Shown: positions 21,283 through 38,682 of the stretch, piece after piece
Layout of the letters: each line of letters begins with the position of its first letter
Position numbering within the stretch: the stretch's first letter is position 1
From: Betaproteobacteria bacterium
GTDB taxonomy: Bacteria; Bdellovibrionota_B; Oligoflexia; Silvanigrellales; Silvanigrellaceae
Direction: 5' to 3'
DNA: 64,000 nucleotides
Assembly: GCA_016868315.1 (NCBI GenBank)
Contig: VGHE01000006.1
Location: 62,001-126,000, forward strand
Notes under the pieces: model-generated
What the model was told of the DNA's origin: nothing
Seen by the model: the letters and a program-made list of their open reading frames with translations, nothing else
Databases searched by the model: none
Translations under genes and position numbers: made by a program

Positions 21283-22299
21283 TCACTCGAGTGTAACCGG
21301 TGCGAAGTTGATTCCACTCAGCGTGAGCATCAAAAACAAGGCGGGTAGGAAAAAAATGGCCATTACCCCGAAGAGGTAAAGGCTCAGCTTGGCAGCCTCA
21401 GCAGAGGCATGTGCTTTGAGGGCTTGGCTCAAAGCACGGTGGCGCTGCACCAACCATCGGTATCTTTCTGGCAACGCAGCCCTCAGGAAACCCTCCCCAA
21501 ACTGAAAAAGAAAGTCGTGCTCCTCTGGCTTGAAGCCGCAGCGCTGGCTCACGGGAGTAGAAGAGCTACTCGCAGCAAAAAGAATTTGTCGGCTGAGGGC
21601 ATTCCAAGGGGCACTGTTCTCCCCGCACAGAGCAAAGCTCAATGCCGCGAGGCTGGATCCTGGAACAGAGCTTACCCCCCACAGGGAGCGCAAAAGGGAT
21701 GCTTGCCCCGCAGGCTGAGAAAGTTTCCTACTGGCCAAAATGCGTTTCTGTCGGACGAAAGCGAGACGCAGGCAGGCACATCCCAAGCCATAGAGGAGTA
21801 TAGCGGACGCAAAAACAAAGAAACCTGAAGACGTGCCTAAATTTGTGAGCCATCTTTGTCCGCCAACGAGTGCAAAAAAAATGGATACGAGAGGCACAAA
21901 AAGAACAAGGAACAGACATTGAAATTTAGCCTGCATTAACTGCTGACTCACCCAGCGGGAGACCGAGCCAAATTCAGTGAGAGTCTCCTCCACTGAATTC
22001 AAACGACAACGCCCATCCTTCTGAATAACCAAAAGCGGAAACAATGACTCAGCCAAAGAGCGAATTTCTGGATTTTCGAGTTCATGCAAATTCGAACGCA
22101 GCGCAGAAACATAATCCTGCGATTGAAAGAGCAAAGCAGATGCAATTGCTGCAAAGGGCTTTATAGAACATCCCTCCAAGGCACGGACGACACTTGCAGT
22201 GCGGGTTTCGCCTCGCGCTGAATGCGCAGCAACCTTAGCCAACACTTTTTCAAGGCCACTCAAATCGAAACGCACACGAAGAAATCCTGGCTTCAACAT
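21283..22299 (-). CDS. TadB/TadC-like (T2SF-type) pilus inner-membrane protein
   Basis: 338 residues. An N-terminal helical domain (about 10-110) is followed by two membrane segments around 128-150 and 160-180. A second soluble part comes next, then a C-terminal hydrophobic segment near 315-333 (LFGVMAIFFLPALFLMLTL). This is the topology of type II secretion F-like platform proteins of Tad pili, and it directly follows cpaF with a 7-bp overlap. Sequence similarity by eye is weak; the call rests mostly on topology and position. Tad loci normally have two such proteins (TadB and TadC), and only one is seen here. Confidence 0.62.
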   Translation of the reverse strand: MLKPGFLRVRFDLSGLEKVLAKVAAHSARGETRTASVVRALEGCSIKPFAAIASALLFQSQDYVSALRSNLHELENPEIRSLAESLFPLLVIQKDGRCRLNSVEETLTEFGSVSRWVSQQLMQAKFQCLFLVLFVPLVSIFFALVGGQRWLTNLGTSSGFFVFASAILLYGLGCACLRLAFVRQKRILASRKLSQPAGQASLLRSLWGVSSVPGSSLAALSFALCGENSAPWNALSRQILFAASSSSTPVSQRCGFKPEEHDFLFQFGEGFLRAALPERYRWLVQRHRALSQALKAHASAEAAKLSLYLFGVMAIFFLPALFLMLTLSGINFAPVTLE

Positions 22300-23732
22300 A
22301 CGTGGCGCCCCGCGCAGAGTTCGCGCACTTCGGCTACTCTCCGCGAACCATCGGCATGACGCTCAAGGTTTACGACCAACTGTATAGAAGAAAGGATCAT
22401 CCGCTGAACAACTTCAGAACCAAGTGAGGGCTGCGCCTGGAGAACTAGGGTTTGGAATCTGTCGAGCGCATCGTTTACTGAGTTGGCATGCAAAGTGCAG
22501 AGTGTGCCGCGGTGCCCGGTATGCAGAGCCTGCAAAAGAGCAAATGCCTCGGCTCCGCGACACTCACCGACCACAATCCTATCAGGGCGCATGCGCAACG
22601 ACTCGCGCACAAGCTCACCAAGACCAACAGCAGGGGCATGCTCAGCGGCACGCTCACGTGTCTGCAAATAAACAACGTGCGGCCGAGCAATGCTGAGCTC
22701 AGGCGTATCTTCAAGCACAAGGATACGTTCAGGTGTCTCACACTGCTCGAGCAAATATCGAAGAAGCGTTGTTTTGCCTGAACCTGTCGGTCCACAAATT
22801 AAGATGTTTTTTCTTGTGTGAAGAGCGGATGTCAGAAGAATAGAATACTCATCCTTGCTGAAAACAAAATCATCTTGAGAGAGTCTCCGTGAGCAAGACG
22901 TGTGGCTTCGGATTGTCACATAGGCGCGGGAACGAGACACGGGTGGCAATGAAACGTGCACACGCGCTCCACAGCGAAGAACGAAATCGGAAAAATTCCG
23001 AACAGTATAAAGGTCAGAATGAGCGCGCGAACTCTGATACAGCAGCCAACGTTCGAGAGTATCCCAAGTGGGAAATGGACTGGGTTGTGATTGCCACTCC
23101 CCCTGTGTTTCGAGCCACAACAGGTCATCACCGTTTAGAACCAACTCAGAAATTGCAGGATCTTCCAAAAATCCTGACAGAACACCCTCAAGAAAAACGT
23201 CTGTAAATATGGCCAAGGTAAAGTGCGCCAGTTTTCCAACATCACCGAAGACAAGCGGAGCGACCCGAGCGGAGAGATCCGAAAGATGGCGAATATCGAG
23301 TGGACGACTGAGCCATTGAGAGTCGAAGTGTGACAAGACCCGTGCCTTCAACTCATGGTACTTGGGCTGTGAAAAAACATGCGAGAATCTGTAAAAATTC
23401 GACATCACATATTTTCTCAGGCAAGAAGGCTCATCGCCTCTGAGCTGCAGAGCGAGCACCACGTTTCGATGAGTAAATTCAACTTTCAGCAGTCCAACGA
23501 TAACTTTGTGCTGCAGCCGGATCCCTATAAAATCTGCATATCTTACAATCTGAAGATTTTCGTTGGGTGCAAAGGCGCGGCTATACAAATCGCAGAGCGA
23601 TGACTCTCCGACAGAGTACCACCTACCCTCTTCGAGCGTGTCTGCGGAGACACAGAGAACTTCCTCCTGACGTTGGGAAAGGACAATCTCACTTGCCCCC
23701 ACGCTTGCCCCCTGGTGAAACCTCGCGCTCAC
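22293..23732 (-). CDS. cpaF: CpaF/TadA-type pilus assembly ATPase
   Basis: A cytoplasmic hexameric secretion ATPase that powers Tad (Flp) pilus assembly. Walker A GPTGSGKTT lies around residue 315, the Asp box DTPEL follows, Walker B-like RPDRIVVGECRG is near 378, and the His box HTGHRGTLCTLHAN is near 395. The N-terminal half is the usual CpaF all-alpha/beta extension. GTG at 23732 overlaps the pilin gene by 44 bp; GTG at 23702 is an equally plausible start with less overlap. The gene order flp-cpaF-tadB/C-like is tight and overlapping, so these three are one operon. Confidence 0.9.
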   Translation of the reverse strand: MSARFHQGASVGASEIVLSQRQEEVLCVSADTLEEGRWYSVGESSLCDLYSRAFAPNENLQIVRYADFIGIRLQHKVIVGLLKVEFTHRNVVLALQLRGDEPSCLRKYVMSNFYRFSHVFSQPKYHELKARVLSHFDSQWLSRPLDIRHLSDLSARVAPLVFGDVGKLAHFTLAIFTDVFLEGVLSGFLEDPAISELVLNGDDLLWLETQGEWQSQPSPFPTWDTLERWLLYQSSRAHSDLYTVRNFSDFVLRCGARVHVSLPPVSRSRAYVTIRSHTSCSRRLSQDDFVFSKDEYSILLTSALHTRKNILICGPTGSGKTTLLRYLLEQCETPERILVLEDTPELSIARPHVVYLQTRERAAEHAPAVGLGELVRESLRMRPDRIVVGECRGAEAFALLQALHTGHRGTLCTLHANSVNDALDRFQTLVLQAQPSLGSEVVQRMILSSIQLVVNLERHADGSRRVAEVRELCAGRHVC

Positions 23733-23976
23733 TCACCTGCATCCCATCGACCTCGCCCGCTGCCTTGCCAGCATCTTCCGCATGCTTCTGAGACTGCTTT
23801 TCGAGACCTGAAATTTCATTTACCGACTTCCCGGAAATGGCCGCACCTAAGGAAGCAATTTTGGATTTCAAGGTCGCTCCAAAGAGCGCTGTTACCGCAA
23901 TAGATGCCACAGCAACCACACTCAAGAGAATTGCATACTCCGTAAGACTCTGACCTTTTTGACGTTCGAAATTCAT
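23689..23976 (-). CDS. Flp-type IVb pilin
   Basis: 95 residues. The N-terminus is MNFERQKGQSLTEYAILLSVV. A short basic leader ends in G, and cleavage before QSLTEY would leave the conserved Glu5 at the start of a hydrophobic helix of about 22 residues, the hallmark of Flp prepilins. The C-terminal part is longer than in typical Flp pilins (about 55-60 residues) and rich in Lys, Glu and Ala. GGAGG lies eight bases before the ATG. It is the first gene of the minus-strand pilus operon. No prepilin peptidase (TadV/CpaA) is seen in the window. Confidence 0.82.
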   Translation of the reverse strand: MNFERQKGQSLTEYAILLSVVAVASIAVTALFGATLKSKIASLGAAISGKSVNEISGLEKQSQKHAEDAGKAAGEVDGMQVSEREVSPGGKRGGK

Positions 23977-24060
23977 GAATCAAACCTCCAGCAGGCACAA
24001 ATACATGTGAACCATTCCTCCTGCTGAGGAAGGAGTTACTGGCTTATTATTTTCAGGCAC

Positions 24061-24081
24061 TTTGATCGAAATCGAATCAAA
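24061..24081. promoter_or_regulatory. Candidate operator: TTTGAT-N9-ATCAAA
   Basis: Six-base arms are separated by nine bases, and the spacer contains tandem ATCGAA units. It lies 85 bp upstream of the flp start codon, between the two divergent pilus operons. FNR/CRP-like sites would have a 4-6 base spacer, so the binding protein is unknown. Confidence 0.35.
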
Positions 24082-24295
24082 AGGTGTGGGTATCTTTTCC
24101 GACCAAAAACAGATGCATTATGGTTGCGCCTCAGTCGAGGCACAAAATGACATCGAAGTTCAGAAAAATTCTCAAAAACGACCACCGCATCTTCCATCTC
24201 CTCATTCCCTGTGGAATCCGTGAACGTCTTTTGGGCATAAAAAGGTTCGCGTGGACAAGCGATCATTTTGCGCTGTTATATCGCTCTCCCTGCCT

Positions 24296-24318
24296 TTTGC
24301 ATTCCTTTGGAATGCAAA
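24296..24318. repeat. Perfect 10-bp inverted repeat at a possible secretin start
   Basis: TTTGCATTCC and GGAATGCAAA flank a 3-base spacer. The right arm contains the ATG at 24312 that would start a longer secretin. As RNA it would form a tight hairpin hiding that start; as DNA it could be an operator. Confidence 0.5.
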
Positions 24319-24542
24319 CACATCTTCAGCTGATCGAGCTTTCTGAAAACTTTGAGGCTCGTCCTTATGTCCGCATCCTCGAACCCAACACTATTGCGCT
24401 CTGCTCTGCAAAATCAGGTTGGGTTGCCGAACTCCCTCTCTGTGCAGATTTGTCGTTGCTTGAAAACTCCTTGGAACACGAACAAGGTGGCTTAAAAAAG
24501 AGTTGCAATAAGAGCAAAATCAGCACATTTAGATTCAAAAAT

Positions 24543-25985
24543 ATGCGATGTCTAATCCTTTATCTTCTGATGATTTTTGCTTTCATTCTCGGTTCCACCT
24601 TGGCTCTTGCAGCCGAAAGGCCTACGCAGTTCAAAATTCAAGTCGGCGAGAGCAAAGAGGTCGACCTCAAGCACCCTCCAAAAAATATCGACATCAGCCA
24701 ATCTGACGTCATCGATGTCCAGCGTGTTGGAACATCGAATCGCATTCTGATAACCGCACTGCGCGCGGGGTCTTCATCCCTGATCGTGCATTTTCCCGAC
24801 GGCAGCTCGCGCGGTTGGACATTTCAAGTTGGGGCATCTGCACTCATGCCGTCGGCAGCAGCAAGTCTTTCATCCACATCTCTTCTGCGCACAGCAAGGG
24901 AATTGCAGCGTCGTACCGGACTCGAAGTGACAGTTGACAACGGTCGGATCGCCTTTTTTGGGACAGCCCAGAACGAAGCGCAAATGCGAGCCATTCTTGA
25001 AATCTGCCTCGAACGTGAAGAGTGCTTGCCACGCTATACATTCACGGAGCAGGCTGGGACTCTGCTCGCACAAACTCTTAAAGCCCATCTTGGCGGCCTG
25101 GGTATGAATGAGGTTTTGCTCGAACTGAATCTGAGTGGAGTCATTCTAACAGGCTTCGTGTCTTCGGAAGAACAATTGATGCAAGTCATGAAAATCGCAC
25201 AGTCGGTCTGCCCACGCGTCAGCTCGCGTATACACGTTGAGGCGGCCAGCCAAACCCTCGTTCAAAGTCAGCTGTCATTCTACCGTATCAGTCAAACCGG
25301 ATTAACTGCTCTCGGCCTTTCGACTGCGGCGCCTGAACAACCCCTCTCCGAAACAGCGCTCGCGAAAGTTTCGACTCCAGATCTCTCCGCTAAGCTTCGG
25401 GGTGGTCCAAACATCACCTTGTCCCTCCCCGAGATTCTTTTGAAGGCACACAGTCAGAAGGGTGTTATCCAGCAAGTCGCGCAACCAGCGATTGTCGTCG
25501 CCAGCGGCGGACGCGGAGAGATACTCTCAGGCGGTGAACTTTTGTTCCAAAGTGGCGGACAGAACCAAAAGTTTTTTTCGCAGAATTATGGAATTTCTGT
25601 CATCTTGCAGCCTCGTGTTGTTAGCCCGAACAAGATTGTTCAACGCGTGGAGCTGAAAATCACCCACCCCCAGTCAGATCCAACACGCAATGCCATATCT
25701 TCATTGAACTCAAGTCTTCTGAAAACTGAGGTCAGTAGTCGTGTCAATGAAGCTCTTCTTCTGACGCGCATCAGTCAGAAGGCAAATGGTAAATCAATCA
25801 ACAAAGTGCCCATCCTCGGACACCTTCCTATCTTGGGGGAACTTTTTAAATCGCGCGAGCTGTCGGGCGAAGATGCCGAATTGTGGATCACTCTCAAAAG
25901 CGATCTCATTCTGCCTCGAGCGCCACAGCTGGAAAGAGAACTCAACGCTTCTCAACAATCAACACAAGCAGATTGGCTCGACTAA
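24543..25985 (+). CDS. cpaC: CpaC/RcpA-type pilus secretin
   Basis: The outer-membrane secretin channel for the Tad pilus. From ATG at 24543 the protein is 480 residues, beginning with a good signal peptide (LILYLLMIFAFILG core, cleavage near LALAAE). Next comes the pilus-secretin N domain (VGESKEVDL...SDVIDVQ...AGSSSLIVHF), a BON-like region, and the secretin core with its C-terminal signature VPILGHLPILGELFKS. The reading frame continues upstream to 24084, and ATG at 24312 would add 77 residues in front of the signal peptide. Neither start has a clear ribosome site. The gene is followed after 2 bp by the next pilus gene. Confidence 0.85.
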   Translation: MRCLILYLLMIFAFILGSTLALAAERPTQFKIQVGESKEVDLKHPPKNIDISQSDVIDVQRVGTSNRILITALRAGSSSLIVHFPDGSSRGWTFQVGASALMPSAAASLSSTSLLRTARELQRRTGLEVTVDNGRIAFFGTAQNEAQMRAILEICLEREECLPRYTFTEQAGTLLAQTLKAHLGGLGMNEVLLELNLSGVILTGFVSSEEQLMQVMKIAQSVCPRVSSRIHVEAASQTLVQSQLSFYRISQTGLTALGLSTAAPEQPLSETALAKVSTPDLSAKLRGGPNITLSLPEILLKAHSQKGVIQQVAQPAIVVASGGRGEILSGGELLFQSGGQNQKFFSQNYGISVILQPRVVSPNKIVQRVELKITHPQSDPTRNAISSLNSSLLKTEVSSRVNEALLLTRISQKANGKSINKVPILGHLPILGELFKSRELSGEDAELWITLKSDLILPRAPQLERELNASQQSTQADWLD

Positions 25986-25987
25986 AA

Positions 25988-26659
25988 ATGATAGAAAATC
26001 TGACGCGCATCGGAGATGCAAGCAAAGAAAATAAGACCGGCGAAAAAATACAACTTGAGAACCGTCTCTTCATTTTAAAACCAGTTCCACAAGAGATCAC
26101 TCTACCCTGTGCGCTGGAGACAGGCGAATGTGTGTCCACGGATGGACGCTGGGTAAAGGTCATGCACAAAGACAAACAGACTTTTTACCGCTGCGCACGA
26201 AGATTTGAGCTGTCCGTAGGAGTGTGTTTTGTCGGGAGGCAGCTTCCCTTCTTCGAAAAGCATCGAAACTTAAACGGAGTCATTCTGCTTCTCGTGGGGA
26301 GCCTCAGCGTTGCACTTGGGGCGCACTTTTTGTGGGAAAGCGCCGGCTCAGCCTCATCCTTCCGCACCCAATCAAAGGATTCCATTCACAAAAACGTTGA
26401 ATCAAAAATATTGCAAGATTCAGATGTATTAAATGTGAATCATGCTGCGGCAGCCTTTCAAGAAAGTTCCTCACAGACTGACCCTCCTGTGGCATCGCAC
26501 ACGTCTTCAGGTGCCAACGCTAAACCAAGCTCAGCCGAAGAACCTGAGCTCGACCCATTGCGCTGCGCTCCACTGCGCAGCGAAGGCGCACAAAGACCTC
26601 CCAGCCAGCGCAAAGTCAATGTCCAAAGCAATGAAAGGACATGGTATGTCTGTCGCTGA
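25988..26659 (+). CDS. Bitopic membrane protein of the pilus locus, unknown function
   Basis: 223 residues. A cytoplasmic N-terminal part of about 95 residues (containing PCALETGEC and FYRCARRFE) is followed by one membrane segment (NGVILLLVGSLSVALGAHFL). A Ser/Pro-rich, probably disordered extracytoplasmic part follows, ending with TWYVCR. No family is recognised. It starts 2 bp after the secretin stop and its end overlaps the next gene, so it belongs to the plus-strand pilus operon. The frame is open to 25883, but the ATG at 25988 fits the operon spacing. Confidence 0.6.
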   Translation: MIENLTRIGDASKENKTGEKIQLENRLFILKPVPQEITLPCALETGECVSTDGRWVKVMHKDKQTFYRCARRFELSVGVCFVGRQLPFFEKHRNLNGVILLLVGSLSVALGAHFLWESAGSASSFRTQSKDSIHKNVESKILQDSDVLNVNHAAAAFQESSSQTDPPVASHTSSGANAKPSSAEEPELDPLRCAPLRSEGAQRPPSQRKVNVQSNERTWYVCR

Positions 26660-27230
26660 ATTTGCCCTTGCGTTGACTGCATCTGTGCCCATCTTCTTTG
26701 CAACACATGAGTGTGTGCGAATTTTTTCTATTCATCGATCTGCTGAAGTTTTATTGTTGCAGCATCTCTCAAAAACAACCCTTTCCTCACTCAGTCAAAT
26801 TCAGAGGGATACTTTTGCACAGCCTTCAGGACGAGAAAATGAGCACGAGATTCTTCTCAAGCAAGGCTTTGAAAACCTTGTTCGAGTCCCGGTGTTGCAA
26901 TGGCAGTGGTCATCTCTGCCCGCATCAGGCAACCACAGTCCACTCTTGGGCGTGCGCGTCTCGGTTTCAGGACCAACGCGCAACCAACCTCTCCAGCCGG
27001 TTCAGGCAAAGGCGACACTCTGCTTGCGGAGCTGGCTTGAGCCACTCATTCATGTTGTTGCGGATGGTCGCTCCTGTGTGGGTGAGTTTTTGTCCAAGCC
27101 GCAGAGAGGAGCATCCAACGGTCGTGGAGTCACCCTCAGGATTGAAGCAAAACGCATCATCCCCATGACCGTTCCCGTCTTTCATTTTGGAGTTTATCGC
27201 CATGCAGAGCTGGCTCCGCGCAAACCCTAG
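26646..27230 (+). CDS. TadE-like pseudopilin
   Basis: 194 residues. The N-terminus is MSVAEFALALTASVPIFF, a very short leader and a hydrophobic helix with Glu at the pseudopilin position, then a soluble domain. AAAGGA lies six bases before ATG 26646. ATG at 26631 would add a KGHG leader, giving a G|MSVAE processing site, and is also plausible. It overlaps the preceding bitopic protein by 14 bp. TadE-type minor pilins are normally found in pairs or triplets in Tad loci, as here. Confidence 0.62.
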   Translation: MSVAEFALALTASVPIFFATHECVRIFSIHRSAEVLLLQHLSKTTLSSLSQIQRDTFAQPSGRENEHEILLKQGFENLVRVPVLQWQWSSLPASGNHSPLLGVRVSVSGPTRNQPLQPVQAKATLCLRSWLEPLIHVVADGRSCVGEFLSKPQRGASNGRGVTLRIEAKRIIPMTVPVFHFGVYRHAELAPRKP

Positions 27231-28143
27231 GCAGCAGGGAGGAATCAAACAACTCAAAAATGCTCAACAAGGAGCAGTTTTGCCAATTCTAGTGCTCTTC
27301 ATGGCAATTTTCGCAGCACTTCTCTTGGGACTCACACAAATGATCCACTCTTCAGCTCAAGAGCTCAATTTGAGTGAAGCAACAGTTCACAAGCACATGC
27401 AAAGCTATTTTTCAGAGGCCATTCAGTTTAATGCAATCGCCAACAACAATCTTGAGATGGCAAACCAGTTGGAGAAAATGCTTTCAAGCCTCGAGCAATT
27501 GCTCGCCTGGGGATTCAACCTCGCAGCAACAACACCCCTCTGGGAGAGCAAGCTGCCAATTCCTGAAAAATATGACCTCATCAGCAGAATCGAACACGCA
27601 ATCACACCGATTTTGGAACGGATAAACGAGCTTTCGGAGCGTCAGCGCGAACACAAGGCCAGTTTGAAAATGATTCCAGCAAGCGCTGTTGTGCAACTCA
27701 ATCTTCTCGAAAGCCTCTGCGCCCTGTCTTGTTTCCGGAAGAACCCAAGCTTGGCTTCGTCCCCTCAATGTCATCAACTTTCAACGTATCCGAATGATTG
27801 CCACCTCAGAATCAAAGTTGTCGGACAGGGGTGGATTCGCCACACCAGCATCCCCCTCAAATCACTTTTAAACACAGCCCTCATACAAAAGGGCGGTTTC
27901 AGTTTGCTCAATCCTCACCAACTTCCCAAAGAACGATTGCATCAGCCTTCTGCGCGAGTGTCGCCCTCTGAAGTGGAACCGTGGGATGTGCATATCGGGG
28001 TTGTTCACCCACGCCTGTGCGCAGCAACACACACAGATTTCCGTATTCCGTGCTCAGCCGGATATGGTTCATTTAAAACGGCACAGGCGCGTCTTTTTGC
28101 ACTCAGCTTTGAACCTCATTGGAGTGTGGCCGTTGAATTTTAA
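27202..28143 (+). CDS. TadG-like pilus-associated protein
   Basis: 313 residues. The N-terminal part (QQGAVLPILVLFMAIFAALLLGL near 25-47) is a single hydrophobic helix after a short basic segment, as in TadG/TadE proteins and other putative minor pilins. A helical region (LEKMLSSLEQLL) and a Cys-containing C-terminal domain follow. GGAG lies nine bases before ATG 27202. It overlaps the end of the TadE-like gene. Family membership rests on the N-terminal architecture and gene order. Confidence 0.58.
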   Translation: MQSWLRANPRQQGGIKQLKNAQQGAVLPILVLFMAIFAALLLGLTQMIHSSAQELNLSEATVHKHMQSYFSEAIQFNAIANNNLEMANQLEKMLSSLEQLLAWGFNLAATTPLWESKLPIPEKYDLISRIEHAITPILERINELSERQREHKASLKMIPASAVVQLNLLESLCALSCFRKNPSLASSPQCHQLSTYPNDCHLRIKVVGQGWIRHTSIPLKSLLNTALIQKGGFSLLNPHQLPKERLHQPSARVSPSEVEPWDVHIGVVHPRLCAATHTDFRIPCSAGYGSFKTAQARLFALSFEPHWSVAVEF

Positions 28144-28804
28144 ACAACAGAGCCGCACATACCGCCCGCGCCAGGGCGGATTCGCTCTCGCGGAAATGGC
28201 TCTTGCGCTACCACTGTTCCTGCTCATTGCTTGGGGCGCTTTGAACCTCTCAGCCCAATTGCATTCCAAACTTTTGCTGGATACACAAAATCACAATGCA
28301 GCCCTCTCGCCAGAGCAATTGCCGCCCACGATTCGGCGGGCGTCGCACTGGCCCGAGAAAACCCAAACGGCTTTGACCGCTGACAAACAATCAAACACCA
28401 CACCGGCTGGGCTGTTTCGTCCGGCTCTGGAACAGTGGCTCTGCCAAAGGCACCAACCCGTGCGCGGTTTCACGCTCGGCCACCCCTCGAGCATCAACAC
28501 GGACTGGCTTTTGGAGCAGCTTGAACAGGTCAGAAACCATGCCTTGGGAGCACAACGCGCTGCCTGTCTGCTCGAGGCCAGTGCACGCTGGGGGCCACAC
28601 AGCTCTCTCGGGCTCCTGCTGGCCATGAGCACCCTGCCGGCTGAAACCGCGCGCAAACAAAGCATTTCGAGTTTCTGCCCTGCAACCGCCGGTGTGGGTG
28701 AGTTCGCCCGGCGGGGCGTGGCTCTGCAGGGGTTAAAATCTCAGCTTTCAGCCGTGATCCCTGAGAGAAAGAAAGCGATGGCCAGCGCGCAGGCATGCGA
28801 ATGA
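28133..28804 (+). CDS. TadE/TadG-like pseudopilin
   Basis: About 223 residues. After a basic leader the sequence GGFALAEMALALPLFLLIAWGALNL gives a prepilin-type cleavage site with Glu at position 5 of the mature protein. The soluble domain has paired Cys (WLCQRH, AACLLE, SFCPAT). The likely start is TTG at 28133, overlapping the previous gene by 11 bp, with GGAG eight bases upstream; GTG at 28124 is the alternative. It is the last gene of the plus-strand pilus operon; tRNA genes follow. Confidence 0.58.
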   Translation: MNFKQQSRTYRPRQGGFALAEMALALPLFLLIAWGALNLSAQLHSKLLLDTQNHNAALSPEQLPPTIRRASHWPEKTQTALTADKQSNTTPAGLFRPALEQWLCQRHQPVRGFTLGHPSSINTDWLLEQLEQVRNHALGAQRAACLLEASARWGPHSSLGLLLAMSTLPAETARKQSISSFCPATAGVGEFARRGVALQGLKSQLSAVIPERKKAMASAQACE

Positions 28805-28825
28805 GGACAAATCACCCAGGCTGGC

Positions 28826-28852
28826 TTGACATGCCATTCCTGGCTATATTAG
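28826..28852 (+). promoter_or_regulatory. Probable promoter of the tRNA pair
   Basis: TTGACA (28826-28831) is followed after 15 bp by TATTAG (28847-28852), sixteen bases before the first tRNA. TATATT at 28845 is an alternative -10 but with too short a spacer. Confidence 0.5.
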
Positions 28853-28867
28853 ACCCCTCTCCACGTT

Positions 28868-28943
28868 GGCGCTTTAGCTCAGTCGGTAGAGCAGTAGATT
28901 GAAAATCTACGTGTCCCCAGTTCGATTCTGGGAGGCGCCACCA
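28868..28943 (+). tRNA. tRNA-Phe (anticodon GAA)
   Basis: A 76-nt cloverleaf. Acceptor GGCGCTT pairs with AGGCGCC (one G-T pair). The D-arm is GCTC/GAGC. The anticodon stem GTAGA/TCTAC encloses the loop TTGAAAA, and the T-arm is CCCAG-TTCGATT-CTGGG. The 3' CCA is encoded after the discriminator A. Confidence 0.97.
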
Positions 28944-28963
28944 CTTCCTATGCCTCACTCCTC

Positions 28964-29039
28964 GCCTCTGTAGCTCAGCTGGTAGAGCATCGCATTCGTA
29001 ATGCGAGGGTCGCAGGTTCAAATCCTGTCGGAGGCTCCA
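28964..29039 (+). tRNA. tRNA-Thr (anticodon CGT)
   Basis: A 76-nt cloverleaf. Acceptor GCCTCTG pairs with CGGAGGC. The anticodon stem TCGCA/TGCGA encloses the loop TTCGTAA, and the T-loop is TTCAAAT. The CCA end is encoded. It lies 20 bp after tRNA-Phe and is probably cotranscribed with it. Confidence 0.97.
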
Positions 29040-29182
29040 TAGCCGATTGAAGCCCAAGTCCCCTGATGTTTTCAAAATTCGAACTGGGAAGCAATTTACC
29101 TGCTGAGTTGGCTAGGTTGCGCTAAAATCAACTGAATGGTTCTCTTGGAGAGTGCGGAGCGCGCACTGTCGAGGCGTTTGCA

Positions 29183-31197
29183 ATGTTCAGGTCGATTGTG
29201 CAGTAGCGATGGTTGCTCTTGTTTGTGCTGGCACTGTTCGTGCAGCCCACACATGGCGATACATTAGCTTCGCTCACTCTGGACAATATGTCTTCCGACC
29301 GGGGTGTCCGTGATTTTGCTTTCAGCCACGTCCCGTATGGCAACCGCTTAGAGCACTTGACACAGGAAAAGCTGAACGCATTGGAGTTTGTCTCTGCACG
29401 AGAAAAACTACCCAATTTTGGCTACAATCGCGGGCAGATTGTAGCTCGCTTTGAAATCAATAATCTCAGCTCGCAAACGGATTGGATTCTTCGGCTTGGT
29501 AATCCGCATCTCAAGAATTTACGCCTTTACCGCCAGCATCATGAAAAGCTCGAAGAGATTGTTCGCACAGGAATTGATGAACCATTTGTATCGCGGCCCA
29601 TTGGCTTTCGCGATTTCTGGATACCATTCAAACTCGACTTTCAGGAGAGGCAGGTCTTTTATCTCCTGACAGAATCATCACAGTGGCTCGGACTCGTTCC
29701 GCATCTGAGCACTTCTGCTGTTGCACGAGATATAAAAATCGAGAATGGGCACTCCAGCTTCTCGGCTTTGGTGGCATCGTCTTTATTTTGCTCTACAACT
29801 TTTTTATCTTTTTTGTGACTCGTGAGCGTGTTTACCTCTATTACGTGCTTGCCAGTATCGCGATTAATATTGTCGTCATTCCTGGATGTGCTGGTCTTCT
29901 TTCGTACATTTTTCCTTACACGCCTCTCCTGGCACAAGATCTTTGGTATGCAGCCGCTGCGGGCTGGATTGGCCTGACTGCCTTGTTCGCTCGCGGATTT
30001 TTACTGAAGAACACCGACGCAGATGTTGAAAAAAAGATTCTCACCTACTCAGCATATATTTCCGCAGTTCTTGCTTTTCTTCCATTTTTTGTGGGTTCAA
30101 ATTTTTACATTGCCCTCGTCTTTAATGTTCTCTCAGGGCTGTTTCAATTCGTGATATTCACACTCGCTTGGCGTTCAGCGGTGCTCCGCCGATATGCATC
30201 TGCTTATATTTTTCTCGCAGCGTGGGGCGTGCCGATTATCATCGCCATGATTTTTGTGGGCGCCACTCAGGGGTTTTATCCGGTCTCAGACAAAATCCTT
30301 TATGCGATGATCTTTTCATCGGTTTGGGAGGTCGTCTGCATGGCGACTGCATTAGGCTATCGCATCGTGATTTTGCAAAAAGAGAAAGAGAGAACTCAGG
30401 TACAGCTGATGGAAAAGGCAAAGCTTGAAGGTGAGCTCGAAGCTGCGCGTGTCGTTCAGGAACAGCTGCTGCCTTTGCTTCAAGCCATTCCAGGGATTGA
30501 GTATCGCGCATTTTTTCAACCCGCAGACACCGCGGGTGGCGACTGGTAAGGATATGTCTATCAAGAGGAACAAAAGAGAATCACCTTCTACATCGGCGAC
30601 ATCACCGGTCATGGAATTACCTCAGCTGTTTTAACAGACGTTGTGTGCGGTGCTGTTTATTCGTCGGAAACAAGATCGCGGCAGTTGGCACATCTCTCGA
30701 CTCCGGTTGAGCAACTTCAATTGGCCGCAGAAACTCTCGACTCCATTCTATTATCCACCGCAGGGCGGACAGGGCGTCTCATGACGATGTGCTTTCTCAC
30801 GATAGACCTGCAGACAGGCCAGGCTTGTGCGCTCAATGCAGGACACACATGGCCGATTTTGGCGCGGCGCGAAAGAGATCGTGTTGTGTGTGAAAAGATT
30901 CCGGGCGGCGGTTCTCTGTTGGGTTCGGGGAAACACAGTTTTGGAGTTCACGAGTTTAAGCTGGGTGAAGGCGATACTTTGTTGCTCTACACCGATGGCC
31001 TCACAGAAAATGAAAGTCTCAAAGGCGAGGTTATCAATTTCCGGAGGCTCAGAAGTATTCTCGGGGTGCACCGTCCGCTGCAGGTTCAGATGAACGAATT
31101 GGAGTCGGCGCTCTGAACGCTCTGGAATGGATGTAAACTAGCCGACGATGTGACCTTCCTTGGAATCCGATTCAACGGAGTCAATGAGTCGCTTTAG
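29183..31197 (+). pseudogene. 7TM-DISM receptor with PP2C/SpoIIE-type phosphatase domain, four lesions
   Basis: The ancestral gene would encode about 670 residues: a signal peptide, a 7TMR-DISM extracellular domain, seven membrane helices, a coiled coil (VQLMEKAKLEGELEAARVVQEQLLP) and a PP2C phosphatase domain. It is broken four times. An in-frame TAG at 29204-29206 cuts the signal peptide after MFRSIVQ; the ATG at 29183 has GAGG eight bases upstream. A one-base loss in the A-run at 29734-29738 shifts the frame before the first membrane helix. A TAA at 30547-30549 replaces the Tyr of GGDWYGY. A TGA at 31114-31116 precedes ADDVTFLGI, the last metal-binding motif. Homology resumes in frame after each stop. 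All three stop codons occur, which argues against recoding. The order GGDW, IGDITGHG, LNAGH, LLLYTDGLTE identifies the phosphatase. Confidence 0.88.
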
Positions 31198-31199
31198 TC

Positions 31200-32774
31200 T
31201 TAGTCGTCTGCCAGAAGGACACCCTGAGGAGCCTCGAGCTCATGTACAATGGGTTTAAGCTTCACGAGCATCAACAAACCTGGAACCGCCATGACCGTAG
31301 AAATGATAAAAAATGTAGGCCAGCCAATACTGGTTGCCGCAGCGCCTGCGAGCGGTCCCACCCAAACCCGGCCGACAGCCGAAAATGCCGAGAGTAGAGC
31401 GTACTGAGTTGCTGTGAATTTTTGATTGCACAGAGACATGAGCAGCGCCACAAAAGCAGCCGTTCCCATTCCAGATGTGATATTTTCCACACCCACCGCA
31501 AAAACCAAAAGACCATCGACCTGTGTTGCCTCTTTCAATGAAACGAGAATGAGGTCGAAAGCGGGCAATTGGAATTCACCCCATGCGCCTTTGCCTAAGG
31601 TTGCGACGAGCCAAAAACCCAGATTTGAAAGCAGCTGCAGAACACCAAAGAGAAGAAGCGAGCGATAGAGTCCAAGTTTGATCATCAATCCGCCGCCAAC
31701 CAACGCCCCGAGAATGGTCAACCAGATTCCAATAATCTTGTTGACCACGCCAATCTCTGCCTGCGCAAATCCAACACCTTTAAGCAAAAAGGGAGTGAGC
31801 AATGAACCCGCAAAAGCATCGCCCAACTTATAAAGCACAATAAAAACGAGAATGCTGACAGCACTCTTAATTGAAAAGTAATTCTTCAGCGCGATATTAA
31901 GCGTCTCATACTTAGCCTTCACCGAAGTGAACCAAGCCAATGGCAACGTAAAAAACAACCCCATAAAAAGGCCTAGCAAATCCGACCACGCCTTTAAGTG
32001 TGTGTTGGGTGCCTCAGGAGTGGCAGGGAAGAGATTCCCCAAAAGCTGCGCGCTCCATGGATTCGCAAGGCGGGTCGTAAATTGATAACCCACCACGACA
32101 GCCGCGACCACGGCCGTAAATCCAATGAGATCCGATTTTGCATCGGACTTTTTTCCGGTGGGTTGATATTTAACAGGGGGCAGCAACAAGAAAGAGAGCA
32201 CAGCAATGGTGGTCATGATCCCGGCCATGACAAGATAGATATTCGACCAAGTCAAGCCGTTGCCTTTCACAGGATCGGCCCAGATTAAGGCAATTCCGCC
32301 AGAAAGAATCATCGCCACCCGATAACCAAAGACATAAATTGCAGATGCAAAGCCCCGCTCATGGTGTTCAAGAACATCGGTACGGTAGGCATCAACCACA
32401 ATATCCTGAGACGCCGAAAGCACTGCGATGGAGAGTGCCACCAAAGAAAACACATGCGTACTTTCCGAAGGCTTTAGAGTTGAAAGCAAAGCTAACGCGG
32501 CTGCTGTGCCGAGTTGGGTCAGAACCAACCAACCTTGCCTCCTTTTAAAAAAGGGAGGCTCAAAGCGATCCATGAGGGGAGCCCAGAGAAACTTGAACGT
32601 GTAGGGGAGCCCGACGAGCGAAAAGAACCCGATGGTGGCGATGTCCACATTGTCGGTCGCGAGCCATGCCTGAAGCGATGCACCTGTGAGTGCCAGCGGC
32701 AAACCACTGGCAAATCCAAGAATGAGCACGATGGTAAAACGCCAATAAGAGTGTTCAAGCCATGCCTTGACCAT
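31200..32774 (-). CDS. ampG: AmpG-family muropeptide permease (MFS)
   Basis: An inner-membrane transporter for import of anhydro-muropeptides during peptidoglycan recycling. About 524 residues with 12-14 membrane segments. The N-terminal signature GFASGLPLALTGASLQAWL then VGLPYTFKFLWAPLMDR is typical of AmpG, and SASQDIVVDAYRTDVL lies further on. ATG at 32774 has GAGGGAG six bases upstream; the in-frame ATG at 32789 would overlap that site. It converges with the disrupted signalling gene, with two bases between ends. No beta-lactamase or ampR is near. Confidence 0.88.
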   Translation of the reverse strand: MVKAWLEHSYWRFTIVLILGFASGLPLALTGASLQAWLATDNVDIATIGFFSLVGLPYTFKFLWAPLMDRFEPPFFKRRQGWLVLTQLGTAAALALLSTLKPSESTHVFSLVALSIAVLSASQDIVVDAYRTDVLEHHERGFASAIYVFGYRVAMILSGGIALIWADPVKGNGLTWSNIYLVMAGIMTTIAVLSFLLLPPVKYQPTGKKSDAKSDLIGFTAVVAAVVVGYQFTTRLANPWSAQLLGNLFPATPEAPNTHLKAWSDLLGLFMGLFFTLPLAWFTSVKAKYETLNIALKNYFSIKSAVSILVFIVLYKLGDAFAGSLLTPFLLKGVGFAQAEIGVVNKIIGIWLTILGALVGGGLMIKLGLYRSLLLFGVLQLLSNLGFWLVATLGKGAWGEFQLPAFDLILVSLKEATQVDGLLVFAVGVENITSGMGTAAFVALLMSLCNQKFTATQYALLSAFSAVGRVWVGPLAGAAATSIGWPTFFIISTVMAVPGLLMLVKLKPIVHELEAPQGVLLADD

Positions 32775-32990
32775 CGGAATCTCCCTCAAGATTGCTCAGC
32801 ACATCAAACTGAGAAAATCTTACGCGAACGCAAGGGAGACCACAATCAACGTTCGTCTCAGAGCTGGAAATGACTCTGCAGTCCACCAATTGACAGCCGC
32901 AGGCGACCGATGTGAGTATCGAAAGCGCTGCGCTTCGGGTGAACCTGCGCATGGATATCACCAGCTCAATGCAACGAGGAATCCAACCGA

Positions 32991-33719
32991 ATGAATCAGC
33001 CTGCGCCCGCCATGCCCACTCAAAAGCCGCAAAACTCAAACCCGAACATGCTTGTCAACATTGCGTTGAACGTTCTTGTTCCGTCGGTCATTCTCACCAA
33101 GTTTAGCACACCCGAACGCCTTGGCCCCGCGCTTGCCTTCTGGGTTGCGTTGGCTTTTCCTCTCGCATTTGGCCTTTGGGAATTCATTCGCAGCCGCAAA
33201 GCAAATTTCTTCTCGGGCTTTGGGTTATTGAACGTTGCCCTCACTGGGGGTCTCGGATTTCTTTCGCTGGATGTCTTCTGGTTTGCAGTTAAAGAGGCAG
33301 CCTTTCCATTGGCACTTGGGCTAGCCGTTCTGGTCTCCACAAAAACCAAAATCCCCCTCATTCAAAATCTGCTGCTCAATGAAAGCGTCATCAATATGGG
33401 GCGCATCAAAGAGAAATTGGATCAAACAGGAAAACAACAAGAATTCGATACTCTCTTGCAGCGATCTACGCTTCTCTTTGCTGTTTCATTTTTCCTGAGT
33501 GCAATTCTTAATTTTGGGCTCGCGCGTTACCTTTTGAAAAGTCCTACAGGTACGCCAGAGTTCAATGCTGAACTGGGTCAAATGACTGCAATGAGCTTTC
33601 CTGTCATCGCCTTGCCTGTTTTGGTCTTCACCGGATTTGTGTTCTGGTACCTTTTTTCGGGAATCACCAGAATCACCGCTCTTTCAAAAGAAGAAATCCT
33701 GGTCAATCAGGGTAAATAA
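32991..33719 (+). CDS. VC0807-family inner-membrane protein
   Basis: 242 residues with about six membrane segments. The pattern LVNIALNVLVPSVILTKFS near residues 22-40, then AFPLAFGLWEFIRSRKANFFSGFGLLNVALTGGLG and FAVKEAAFPLALGLAVL matches the uncharacterised VC0807 group, whose members resemble septation protein A. Function unknown. It is divergent from ampG across a 216-bp gap in which I see no convincing promoter. Confidence 0.62.
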   Translation: MNQPAPAMPTQKPQNSNPNMLVNIALNVLVPSVILTKFSTPERLGPALAFWVALAFPLAFGLWEFIRSRKANFFSGFGLLNVALTGGLGFLSLDVFWFAVKEAAFPLALGLAVLVSTKTKIPLIQNLLLNESVINMGRIKEKLDQTGKQQEFDTLLQRSTLLFAVSFFLSAILNFGLARYLLKSPTGTPEFNAELGQMTAMSFPVIALPVLVFTGFVFWYLFSGITRITALSKEEILVNQGK

Positions 33720-33821
33720 AAACACTCTGAGTTATTGGGCTTTACAGGCAGCTTCGTACTTTTGCCTCAAGCCCATAGCACGCCCCTCCGAACCACGAAC
33801 AAAGTAGTTTGGGAGGTGACC

Positions 33822-34361
33822 GTGAGATATACCTGCATGGCCGTATCTTGTTTGGTCGCAGTCGGATGTGCCGAGACGAAAGTTTCAGACGGAACTGGAA
33901 ACCCGCTCAGCGGCTCCAGCCGATCCCCGAGCAATGCAAGCGGCAAGCCCTACTTAAGCGAAATTTTGCGCAGGTACAGCACCCCGGGGGATGCCGCGCA
34001 ACCCTTCGGGCTCTGGACTCTCACCCAGACAACTACAAGCGGCAATGGAAAACTCACCGTTGATGGATTTCTGCGCATCAACAAAGAGAGTGTCTCGAAT
34101 ATCGTTGCCTGCTTAGACAATGAATCAAAAAAATACGTGATAGCGCCGGCAATGGCTACCGTTGCGTTGGTGAAAAACAGTGATGGTAGCTACAGCTTTA
34201 ATATTCCCCGCCCGATCGAAACTGAAGCTGAAAGCAATGGACTGACGTGCCGCTCTTCTCTGGAAGAAGGCGAGTACATCTTGAAAGTAGACGAACGCGG
34301 GATGTTGCTCATTAAGGAAGCGGGTGACGTGCAGTTCGCGGAGTTCCAGCGGGTCAAATAG
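33822..34361 (+). CDS. Small lipoprotein, unknown function
   Basis: About 179 residues. GTG at 33822 with GGAGG five bases upstream gives a short type II signal peptide ending LVAVGC (lipid Cys). The frame is open to an ATG at 33735, but that start would put the signal peptide internally. The mature part starts with a Ser/Asn/Gly linker and continues with a small strand-rich domain (GLWTLTQTT, LTVDGFLRINKE). No family is recognised. Confidence 0.6.
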   Translation: MRYTCMAVSCLVAVGCAETKVSDGTGNPLSGSSRSPSNASGKPYLSEILRRYSTPGDAAQPFGLWTLTQTTTSGNGKLTVDGFLRINKESVSNIVACLDNESKKYVIAPAMATVALVKNSDGSYSFNIPRPIETEAESNGLTCRSSLEEGEYILKVDERGMLLIKEAGDVQFAEFQRVK

Positions 34362-34370
34362 TCAACAGAA

Positions 34371-34760
34371 TCAATACGGCTTGTAGCTTTTCTCTTCCGC
34401 GTAGGCAGAACCCATAGCCTTATTTATTTGTGACTTAATTTGAAAGCGCTTGTCGTTGGTCACATAAACTGCGCGCGCGAGCTCAATGAACTTTTGATCG
34501 AAGGTTTTTGCGCGCTCCTTTTCGCGGATGTCATCTTCAATGACCCACAGCTCTTCATTCACACTCTTAAGTTCGCGCACCAACACATGCGTCACATCGA
34601 TTGAGTTATTGCGGCAGGTTTCCAGAAGCGCCGAGAGCTCTTTGCGGATATTGACCTGCTTGTTTTGGTCTTCGATACGCTCGCTCTTGATTTGAAGGAT
34701 AGTGATTTTGTCGAGCAATTCACCAACCGAAACAGGCACCAACACTTCACTCGCACTCAC
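34371..34760 (-). CDS. DUF6165 family protein
   Basis: About 129 residues, helical. LVPVSVGELLDKITILQIKSERIED near the N-terminus followed by NIRKELSALLETC is the pattern of the DUF6165 group, which often accompanies sugar-processing genes and has no known activity. GTG at 34760 has GAGG six bases upstream; GTG at 34772 would overlap that site. It lies 49 bp downstream of the ABC permease genes on the same strand and may be in their transcript. Confidence 0.6.
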   Translation of the reverse strand: MSASEVLVPVSVGELLDKITILQIKSERIEDQNKQVNIRKELSALLETCRNNSIDVTHVLVRELKSVNEELWVIEDDIREKERAKTFDQKFIELARAVYVTNDKRFQIKSQINKAMGSAYAEEKSYKPY

Positions 34761-34809
34761 CGTAGACCTCACCTTCGTATTTAAAATTCTGGGGCAAAAG
34801 ACTTAAGCT

Positions 34810-35667
34810 TCAGGCCGACCCAGCTTTTGGATCGAGGCTTGCACGCAGCGATTCAGCCAGGAAGTTTAAAGCCAAGACCAGACTCAAAAGAGCCAACGAC
34901 GGGAAAATAGCGAGATGCGGAGATTCAAGCAAGTAGGCACGCGCCTCACTCAGTGAAGCCCCCCAGGAGGGGTGTTCATCGCCGAGCCCCAGCCCCAAAA
35001 AGCTGAGGCCGGCCTCTGCAAGAATCACTCCGGCAAGGCTGAAAGAGGCATGCACGAGCAACGAGGAAGCCGCGTGAGGGAGCATATGAACGAACATCAC
35101 CCGGCGGGGGGTTGCCCCCAATGCCCGCGCAGCCTCTACGAACTCGCGCTTATCCAACGCTCGAAACTCTGCACGCACCAACTTGGCGGAGCCAATCCAA
35201 CCACTCACCGTAAGAGCCACAACGACATTCAAAAAGCCACCACCCAACAGAGCGGTCAGGGCAATTGGCAAAACAAGCGGAGGAAAGGAGAGAAGGATAT
35301 CCATGAGGCGCGTGATTAAAACATCAAAATATCGCCGCCCACTGCCAGCAAGGGCTCCCAGGGGTATACCTATCGCAAAGCTCAACAGCACAGTGCACAA
35401 TCCCACAGACAATGAGACACCTGCACCACTGAGCACCTGATAGAACACACTTGTTCCAACAGAATCGTAACCGAACCATCCGGAGGGCTCGGAGAGATTC
35501 CATTGCGGTGCCATGCGGGTCTTAGGCAAATCTATATCGAGTGGCAAAAGCTCGGGAAGAGCATGGGGCAGCAGCGCCACACAAAGCCAAAGAACAACAA
35601 CCAACATGCTGAGCTTTGTTACGGTATCGCGGAGCAAGGCATGTCTCATATTTTTAAAGAGAGTCAT
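34810..35667 (-). CDS. Oligopeptide/dipeptide-type ABC transporter permease, C subunit
   Basis: 285 residues with a first membrane helix near 18-36 and five more. The EAA loop EAARALGATPRRVMFVHMLP at about 185-205 would contact the ATPase. It is the DppC/OppC-type partner of the upstream permease, and its ATG overlaps that gene's stop (ATGA). Substrate unknown (peptides, nickel and others are possible in the family). No ATPase genes follow. Confidence 0.9.
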   Translation of the reverse strand: MTLFKNMRHALLRDTVTKLSMLVVVLWLCVALLPHALPELLPLDIDLPKTRMAPQWNLSEPSGWFGYDSVGTSVFYQVLSGAGVSLSVGLCTVLLSFAIGIPLGALAGSGRRYFDVLITRLMDILLSFPPLVLPIALTALLGGGFLNVVVALTVSGWIGSAKLVRAEFRALDKREFVEAARALGATPRRVMFVHMLPHAASSLLVHASFSLAGVILAEAGLSFLGLGLGDEHPSWGASLSEARAYLLESPHLAIFPSLALLSLVLALNFLAESLRASLDPKAGSA

Positions 35668-36584
35668 GTGCGCGCCATTCTCGGATCAATCTGCCTGTGA
35701 AGCACATCGACCAACGCGGCTGCGCACACCTGAACCACCGAAAGAACCACCACACAACCTGACAGAAGATTGTAGTCCCGCTGCGACACAGCCTCCATCA
35801 TGAGCGAACCCAAGCCCGGCCATGTAAAAACCTGCTCGGTGATAATTGCTCCACTCAACAGACTTCCGATCTGCAGCCCAAGCAAGGTCGTGGTGGGCAA
35901 AAGAGCGTTGCGCAACGCATGCACACCGACCACGCGCAAACGCGATACTCCCTTGCTGTAGGCAGTGCGAATATAATCCTGCGAAAGTGTTTCTATCAGA
36001 GAACTACGCAGCATCCGGCCAGTGATCGCTGCGAGAGTGATTCCCAAGACAAAGGCAGGCAGAATAAGTGAATTCCAACCTTGGCTCCCCGTCAGTGGCA
36101 ACCAATCCAGCCATACGGAAAAAATCCAAAGCATGATTGTGCCTGTTATGAAGGTCGGAGCCGAAATAAAAAAAAGTGAGACAACTGCAAGCAGCCTGTC
36201 GCTCCGTGTTCCTGCCCTGAGCGCACCAACGACACCAAAAAAAAGTGCGCAACTTATGGACACCATCAGAGCACAGACGGCCAAGCGAACTGTTTCAAGG
36301 AACCTTTGCGCAATAAGGGGTGCAACAGGCCTTCCATCTATCCAACGCACCCCAAAATCACCTTGCACCAGAGCCTGCACATAGCTTGAATATTGATGAT
36401 GCAGTGGCCTGTCGAGCCCATGTGCTGCAAGCCAACGCTGCTTGTCTGACCAAAGCGCATCAGCACCCAAAACAGCATCGGCAGGACTTCCAGGAAGCAG
36501 CCGCTGGAGCAAAAAAACAACCGTCACGACAGCAAAAGAAACGAACACAAGCCGCGCCAAAAAAGCTAGAATTCCGCGCGACAT
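35664..36584 (-). CDS. Oligopeptide/dipeptide-type ABC transporter permease, B subunit
   Basis: 306 residues, DppB/OppB-type. The N-terminal helix FLARLVFVSFAVVTVVFLL is followed by the LPGSPADAVLGADA periplasmic region, then the EAA-type loop DYIRTAYSKGVSRLRVVGVHALRNALLP at about 205-232. It starts 4 bp after the binding-protein gene. It forms the heterodimeric channel with the downstream C subunit in the inner membrane. Confidence 0.9.
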   Translation of the reverse strand: MSRGILAFLARLVFVSFAVVTVVFLLQRLLPGSPADAVLGADALWSDKQRWLAAHGLDRPLHHQYSSYVQALVQGDFGVRWIDGRPVAPLIAQRFLETVRLAVCALMVSISCALFFGVVGALRAGTRSDRLLAVVSLFFISAPTFITGTIMLWIFSVWLDWLPLTGSQGWNSLILPAFVLGITLAAITGRMLRSSLIETLSQDYIRTAYSKGVSRLRVVGVHALRNALLPTTTLLGLQIGSLLSGAIITEQVFTWPGLGSLMMEAVSQRDYNLLSGCVVVLSVVQVCAAALVDVLHRQIDPRMART

Positions 36585-36588
36585 GTTT

Positions 36589-38196
36589 TTACCTCACCTG
36601 CACCTGCGTCAAAGAAGTATAGCGGCCGTCGGCAAAGATTCTGAAACCAGAGACCCTGCGTGAATGCACAACGTGACCAACCCGATGCCACAGAAAAATA
36701 TAAGGAAGTTCTTGGGACACGATGGCCTGTGCTTCCTGGTAAAGACGCCTGCGCTGCTCAAGTGAAGCCTCAGACTTCGCCTTGTCCAATAGCTCGTCGA
36801 GCATAGCATTGCTGTAAAACCCTCGATTGGCACCGGAAGGGGGAGTGCGCTTGGAGTGAAATACAAAGTGCAAGTGATCACCATCCTTGTACCCTGTCCA
36901 AGGTGCAATCCAAGCCTGAACATTGCCGTTGTTGAGATGTTTCATGAAGGTGTTGAATTCGAGAACCTCGACCTTGACCTTCAGCCCCACCTTCTTCAAT
37001 TGCCCGGCAATAGCCTTCGCAACAGCAATTCTTTCCCGATTGAGAGGAACCTTGATGTTGAACGTTGCACGCGGTTGAGGGCCAGCAGAACCATCGGAAT
37101 CCTTCAAGCCGGCTAAATCGAGAAGAAGTTCAGCCTCTCGCAGGTTGTGCTCTGCACTGTTCTTGTTCTCGAAATGAAAAGCATGGCCAGGTGGAAACAT
37201 CGAATTGGCCTCTTGCCCGAGTCCTTGGAGCGTGAACTTCAAAATCTCGGCACGATTCATGGCCAGTGCAATAGCACGGCGCACACGCACATCCTGGAAG
37301 AGTTTGTGTCTAAAGTTAAACGCAAGGAATGCAGTCGAATCTGAGGTCTTGAGTTGAACCTCAAACTCTCCCGCGCGCCGGTTCTGAAACTCGACGACTT
37401 TGTCAGAATCAACGCTATTTTGTAGCAGATCAATCTCGCCTTTAAGCAATGCAGCATAGCGAGTATTGTTGTCAGTCAGAATTTTAAAAACGACGTTCTC
37501 AACTCGAGGAAGCATGCCGCCAAAAGGTGCACCCGTGTACTTTCCATTGCGCTGAATGATCCATTCATCATCAGCAGCTTTCTTGAGAAGAAATGGTCCC
37601 GATTCAAATCCAAGTCCCACGAGGTCGTCTGGCTTTCTGCTCAGCGCCTCTTTGGGAAGTATACCGACGGTCAAATTAGAAATGAGGGATGCATCAGGCT
37701 CTGAAAGAACCAGTCGCATTTCGCTCGGGCTGACCTTCTCAATATTTTTAACGCGCTCAAAAGCCCCTCGCCGTGGGCTGGGGGGAAGTCCGAGTGCGCC
37801 GAAGCAAACGAATTTGTACGTCGCAACCACATCATCAACATCGATACTGCGCCCTTGAGCAAAGCGAATGCCGTCGCGAATCTTCACAACCACGGTCAGG
37901 GGGTCTGTGAATTGAATCTTTTCAGCAACAATCTCCTGAGGCTCGCCTGACTCCGAAAAACCAACCAAGGGAAGGTGCAGCAAAGGCTCCAGATACTGGC
38001 TATTGGCATCGGTGGCCACAAAGCGAGGGTCAACGGAGCGCGGACGCGTCTCGAAGCCGACTCGCAAAGTTTCAGCAAGGGAGGCTTGAATCGATGGCGC
38101 AGCAAGAGCTCTAAAATGAGGCAAAAGCAGAACTGCGAGCAGAAAAGACAGACAAAGCCGCCCGACAAAGGCTCTCAACCAACTGAAATGAAACAT
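36589..38196 (-). CDS. ABC transporter substrate-binding protein (SBP_bac_5 type)
   Basis: 535 residues with a signal peptide (LCLSFLLAVLLLPHF core, cleavage near ALA-AP), so periplasmic. The family pattern RVGFETRPRSVDPRF...DANSQYLEPLL near the start, DGIRFAQGRSIDVDDVVATY mid-way, and AIALAMNRAEIL match peptide-type binding proteins. GGGAGG precedes the ATG. It is the first gene of a three-gene unit with two permeases. No ATPase subunit lies in the window, so a shared ATPase elsewhere is required. Confidence 0.9.
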   Translation of the reverse strand: MFHFSWLRAFVGRLCLSFLLAVLLLPHFRALAAPSIQASLAETLRVGFETRPRSVDPRFVATDANSQYLEPLLHLPLVGFSESGEPQEIVAEKIQFTDPLTVVVKIRDGIRFAQGRSIDVDDVVATYKFVCFGALGLPPSPRRGAFERVKNIEKVSPSEMRLVLSEPDASLISNLTVGILPKEALSRKPDDLVGLGFESGPFLLKKAADDEWIIQRNGKYTGAPFGGMLPRVENVVFKILTDNNTRYAALLKGEIDLLQNSVDSDKVVEFQNRRAGEFEVQLKTSDSTAFLAFNFRHKLFQDVRVRRAIALAMNRAEILKFTLQGLGQEANSMFPPGHAFHFENKNSAEHNLREAELLLDLAGLKDSDGSAGPQPRATFNIKVPLNRERIAVAKAIAGQLKKVGLKVKVEVLEFNTFMKHLNNGNVQAWIAPWTGYKDGDHLHFVFHSKRTPPSGANRGFYSNAMLDELLDKAKSEASLEQRRRLYQEAQAIVSQELPYIFLWHRVGHVVHSRRVSGFRIFADGRYTSLTQVQVR

Positions 38197-38321
38197 ACTC
38201 CCTCCCGCAGACGACCTTGAGGAGTGTAGCGCTTCCTGGCGGGCGAATGAATGGAGCGAGCGTCACAAGCCCTGCGAAAAAAGGCTAACCTCTCGGGCAT
38301 CTTCAAATTGGCAGAGCCCGG

Positions 38322-38350
38322 TTGACGTGGCTCACATGCTTGGTTAGAAG
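38322..38350 (+). promoter_or_regulatory. Sigma-70-type promoter upstream of rpoZ
   Basis: TTGACG (38322-38327), 17-bp spacer, TAGAAG (38345-38350), 38 bases before the rpoZ start. The -35 box is near consensus and the -10 box weaker. Confidence 0.55.
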
Positions 38351-38388
38351 GCTCTTCTTGGTGCAATTTTCTAAGAGGTACTTGAGAC

Positions 38389-38634
38389 ATGGCACGAATT
38401 TCCATCCAGGACTGTCTCGACAGAATTCCAAACCGCTTCGCAGTGGTCATGCTCGCAGCGCGCCGTATGCGTCAGCTCCAGAAGGGCAGCGATCCACTTG
38501 TGGAATGCAAGAACAAAGAGGCGGTCACTGCGCTTCGCGAAATCGCTGCTGGTGTGGTTGGAATCAATGAAATGGAACAAATTCCAGGCCTCTCTGAGAA
38601 CATCGAACGTCAGGCGAAGCGCTATAAAGACTGA
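38389..38634 (+). CDS. rpoZ: RNA polymerase omega subunit
   Basis: 81 residues. [20 protein letters not shown], then AARRMRQLQ and [14 protein letters not shown] follow the omega pattern (the N-terminal helix with NRFELVxxAAxRARQL and the KexvxAlrEIaxG motif). Omega supports RNA polymerase assembly and, in proteobacteria, forms part of a ppGpp site. Unusually, no gmk or spoT is next to it. It has its own promoter. Confidence 0.93.
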
Positions 38635-38682
38635 GAGGCTGAGTTCCTCTCCGACTTTCACATCTTCCGAGAAGCTCCGCCT

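Follow-up and report, generated by a model that had tools for sequence, protein, structure and literature searches.

A very probable young pseudogene of a 7TMR-DISM receptor-phosphatase with several inactivating lesions in a Silvanigrellaceae bacterium

7TMR-DISM receptors with a SpoIIE-type PP2C output form a known family of one-gene membrane receptor-phosphatases, in which the 7TMR-DISMED2 (PF07696), 7TMR-DISM_7TM (PF07695), and SpoIIE (PF07228) domains follow one another. In such families, the phosphatase dephosphorylates a regulator, in many cases an anti-sigma-factor antagonist. Helical linkers joining sensory and PP2C domains have been described (PMC1592074). As to how bacterial genes decay, a single inactivating mutation is present in 346 of 378 pseudogenes in Salmonella, the other 32 have more than one, and the young ones are removed fast (PMC2916853, Kuo and Ochman, 2010). 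Here we describe a gene with the same three domains in the same order as the known receptors, located in a 64,000-nucleotide stretch of DNA (the window; contig VGHE01000006.1 of assembly GCA_016868315.1, positions 62,001 to 126,000). Unlike these receptors, the window copy has lost its continuous reading frame through a frame change and two or more in-frame stops, and it is very probably a young, multi-lesion pseudogene of the family.

Architecture of the broken gene and its intact orthologue

The broken gene spans window positions 29213–31197 on the + strand and is split over two reading frames (Table 1). A first-pass annotation of this DNA had claimed DISM, membrane, and PP2C parts, and hmmscan of the three pieces against Pfam matched all three families in that order: 7TMR-DISMED2 (1.9e-15, 57.4 bits, cut-off 22), 7TMR-DISM_7TM (3.6e-23, 83 bits, cut-off 29), and SpoIIE-type PP2C (1.4e-29, 103.8 bits, cut-off 25), the last with its catalytic motifs aligned. 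Translation in two frames gives the reconstructed protein described there, and the residual ORFs at 29213–29818, 29683–30549, and 30643–31116 (+ strand) have exactly the coordinates it gave. One continuous reading frame for a 7TMR-DISM/PP2C protein is absent, as a frame change, a TAA, and a TGA interrupt it.

Table 1. Features of the broken receptor-phosphatase gene (window coordinates)
Feature	Position	Strand	Remark
GAGG, Shine-Dalgarno-like core	29171–29174	+	8 nt upstream of ATG 29183
ATG, likely original start codon	29183–29185	+	Suggested by the Shine-Dalgarno core and a charged signal-peptide n-region
In-frame TAG, probable lesion	29204–29206	+	At or upstream of the aligned orthologue start
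Signal peptide and 7TMR-DISMED2 extracellular domain	29213–29737	+	Pfam; 49% identity to the G002 orthologue
A-run with reading-frame change (lesion)	29734–29738	+	Frame 2 homology ends at 29737; frame 1 begins at 29734
7TMR-DISM_7TM, coiled-coil linker, and PP2C start up to GGDW	29734–30546	+	Pfam; 70% identity
In-frame TAA after GGDW (lesion)	30547–30549	+	Sense codon in the intact orthologue
SpoIIE-type PP2C core (IGDITGHG, NAGHT, YTDGLTEN)	30550–31113	+	Pfam, 1.4e-29
In-frame TGA before C-terminal ADDVTFLGI (lesion)	31114–31116	+	Sense codon in the intact orthologue
C-terminal segment with DD metal motif, then original stop TAG (31195–31197)	31117–31197	+	

The closest relative among 7TMR-DISM/PP2C receptors is an intact orthologue in a genome of the same genus (G002; public record RFOM01000006.1, Proteobacteria bacterium isolate WB4_1_1462), a single open frame of 672 codons that encodes all three Pfam domains. 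Among 115 related genomes, G002 alone carries the orthologue (65% identity over 19–658); ranked by E-value, the runner-up from any other genome reaches 32% identity. Querying 58 genomes of the class with the intact protein added no further orthologues. Over the 7TM and PP2C part, the window copy and the G002 orthologue share 70% identity across 483 residues without gaps. The DISMED2 sensor domain (29213–29737) is about 50% identical to the orthologue, versus about 70% for the 7TM and phosphatase parts. With an intact orthologue in a sister genome, the annotated reading, recent inactivation of a 7TMR-DISM/PP2C receptor gene that was once intact, is the best one.

The ancestral protein would have consisted of a signal peptide, a periplasmic 7TMR-DISMED2 sensor, the seven 7TMR-DISM helices, a coiled-coil linker, and a cytoplasmic SpoIIE-type PP2C phosphatase. 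By analogy with the known receptors, its most likely role was to switch the phosphatase in response to a ligand outside the membrane. Several other SpoIIE-type phosphatases are retained in the same genome, along with a further 7TMR-DISM protein that terminates in a kinase-like region instead; therefore, other such pathways remain.

Lesions, sequencing error, and residual function

The G002 orthologue aligns with the window in frame 2 to 29737 and then in frame 1 from 29734, which keeps homology in register both before and after the A-run and bears out the frame change annotated there. From this point, the frame 1 alignment runs ungapped to 31182, crossing both the TAA and the TGA, and the match continues past the TGA into the final residues, the DDVT metal motif among them. 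Since the orthologue aligns in register across the frame change, the TAA, and the TGA, these are very probably real interruptions of a once-continuous gene. The first-pass annotation had counted four lesions, with homology resuming in frame after each stop; three lesions are firm and the fourth, the TAG, is only probable, and in-frame resumption is shown for two of the three stops. All three stop codon types do occur in the broken gene, as it had noted.

The status of the TAG depends on the position of the gene start. This codon falls at or just upstream of the aligned start of the orthologue, whose ATG (L039:4944) corresponds to about window 29198–29204, in a stretch where homology cannot be shown and signal peptides are too variable for alignment. 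If the gene starts at ATG 29183, the TAG is a lesion; if it starts downstream, e.g., at TTG 29213, the TAG is none. ATG 29183 has GAGG 8 nt upstream and a basic n-region usual for a signal peptide, and TTG 29213 has neither. Of all ATGs in the window, 7% have a Shine-Dalgarno core 4–11 nt upstream; because several intact window genes likewise have no such core at the starts placed in our analysis, this evidence for ATG 29183 is only moderate. Judged from these start signals, the upstream ATG, and hence the TAG as a lesion, is probably the better choice.

Could the lesions be sequencing or assembly errors in a gene that is whole in the organism? One lesion does sit in a short homopolymer, and the assembly is a draft of 27 contigs; however, base-change stops are not typical assembly errors, and the neighboring genes from 31200 to 40491 are intact with open frames. 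The background of interrupted genes in the same genome, estimated from one large family, ABC_tran, and agreeing with a second, small family, is also low (one stop in about 27 kb, made up of 60 domains that pass the cut-off). At this rate, the probability of three stops in 2 kb is about 6e-5, and that of two is about 0.003. We thus regard noise as an unlikely source of the lesions, and a gene that is whole in the organism as very unlikely, although a single site might still reflect an error or variation between strains. The sole ABC_tran stop, an in-frame TAA, falls in an ABC-transporter ATPase gene with a truncated end (L084, G000:C3:45300-47800; G000 is the genome of the window), which is probably another pseudogene. 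Stop-codon reassignment was rejected, since this gene contains each of the three stop codons, whereas other genes have open frames.

A full-length product would be blocked by the frame change together with at least two, probably three, nonsense changes, and catalysis is presumably lost because no remaining piece holds the whole phosphatase domain. Alternatively, each of the three fragments might now work as a gene in its own right, e.g., one for a secreted sensor domain and one for a membrane domain lacking the phosphatase, and every fragment does contain an ORF that could start at a non-ATG codon. Against this, the second and third ORFs split the PP2C domain so that each part misses needed motifs, the starts are TTG or GTG (TTG 29213, the sole start tested, has no Shine-Dalgarno core), and no fragment was seen to have a conservation pattern of its own; this makes separate genes extremely unlikely. 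Beyond the directly observed architecture, lesions, intact orthologue, and unaccelerated evolution, we infer that the gene lost its function and has decayed neutrally since then.

Selection and age of the inactivation

Between the window copy and the orthologue, third codon positions differ by 0.62–0.65 and second positions by 0.16–0.29 (in the 7TM and PP2C parts, about 0.62 versus 0.16–0.17), and dN is about 0.29 with dS saturated. Divergence mostly at third positions, with this dN and saturated dS, indicates that most of the history passed under purifying selection. At columns conserved in outgroups, the window copy departs in 4 of 96 and the orthologue in 7 of 99, and relative-rate counts against 14 outgroups gave no consistent excess on the window side. 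This lack of accelerated protein evolution fits a young pseudogene, as the window copy may be too young to show relaxed selection; it would also fit an unknown recoding.

Expression by recoding would mean programmed frameshifting at the A-run together with stop read-through. The unaccelerated evolution and the location of the frame change in an A-run speak for it, but a single message would have to undergo a frameshift and also be read through at two or more stops of different types, and the A-run is only 5 long, with the phasing ATA AAA ATC and no standard slippery heptamer. The G002 orthologue, a single open frame, has no such features. A frame transition conserved among homologues is the usual sign of recoding (PMC3711429), and here the transition is not conserved. 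We consider the chance of recoding close to negligible, and a functional product of any kind, whether from separate sensor and membrane fragments or by unusual recoding, highly unlikely; if there were one, it would explain why the copy is not evolving faster than its intact orthologue.

For the young pseudogene that we favor, the stops give a rough age. A random substitution in these codons creates a stop in about 3.8% of cases, so that two to three stops correspond to about 0.026–0.040 neutral substitutions per site since inactivation (3–4%), with 95% ranges of 0.003–0.095 for two stops and 0.008–0.116 for three, under the assumptions of neutrality and a transition/transversion weight of 2. 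This suggests an inactivation that is young compared with the divergence between the two species, whose synonymous divergence is saturated. The gene resembles ordinary bacterial pseudogenes in its nonsense changes and short frame change, its patchy distribution, and its youth, but differs in having three or four lesions where most in Salmonella have one (PMC2916853). Because most Salmonella pseudogenes carry a single mutation, it does not count as young by the standard of typical bacterial pseudogenes. The loss annotated as recent is accordingly recent relative to species divergence, with more lesions than most bacterial pseudogenes have.

Genomic neighborhood and significance

Upstream of the broken gene lies a tRNA-Phe/tRNA-Thr pair and beyond it a pilus cluster, which we take to be of the Tad type from its gene families, with a weak TadE match. 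The pilus-type cluster (21283–28804) is 25–54% identical between same-genus genomes for most genes; genes downstream of 31200 are mostly 60–86% identical to those of a second same-genus genome, G001, and thus diverge far more slowly. An 87-codon ORF lies antisense to both tRNA genes (28812–29075, – strand); such ORFs are often misannotated as proteins. Downstream of the broken gene and convergent to it is an MFS transporter gene, 83–86% identical in the sister genomes.

G001 (98% complete) shares the tRNA pair and the MFS gene, but these are adjoined by an FG-GAP-like repeat ORF and others, and no phosphatase was found at this matching locus, where contigs break inside the repeat ORF and a gap could hide a copy. 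In G002, the tRNA pair is followed by a protease-like ORF and a different 7TMR-DISM/PP2C gene on the opposite strand (861 codons, L056:10861-13443, about 29% identical in the phosphatase). The intact orthologue that the first-pass annotation had proposed to seek in sister genomes thus exists in G002 but sits at another locus, on another contig, where it adjoins an ammonium transporter and a Kelch-like gene; G000 has the counterparts of these two neighbors on two other contigs. The G000 ammonium transporter was rejected as a further broken gene: two TGA codons precede the conserved protein in a poorly aligned part, and the rest is open.

From the tRNA-Phe/tRNA-Thr pair to the DUF6165 gene (window 29040–34370), the three same-genus genomes each carry different genes (G001 L057/L060; G002 L056). 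Given this difference in gene content, the stretch between the tRNA pair and the MFS gene is a variable spot, and loss there fits a dispensable, patchily distributed receptor. Integration at tRNA-Thr was considered and rejected, as the tRNA 3' end does not recur in the window and there are no noteworthy flanking repeats. A search of viral contigs revealed no relatives.

The broken receptor-phosphatase reveals no new mechanism; it is a case of real but ordinary gene decay that is useful for annotation, since gene callers would report three short unrelated genes at the locus. It documents one receptor-phosphatase lost in one species, in a genus whose members differ in their receptor sets.
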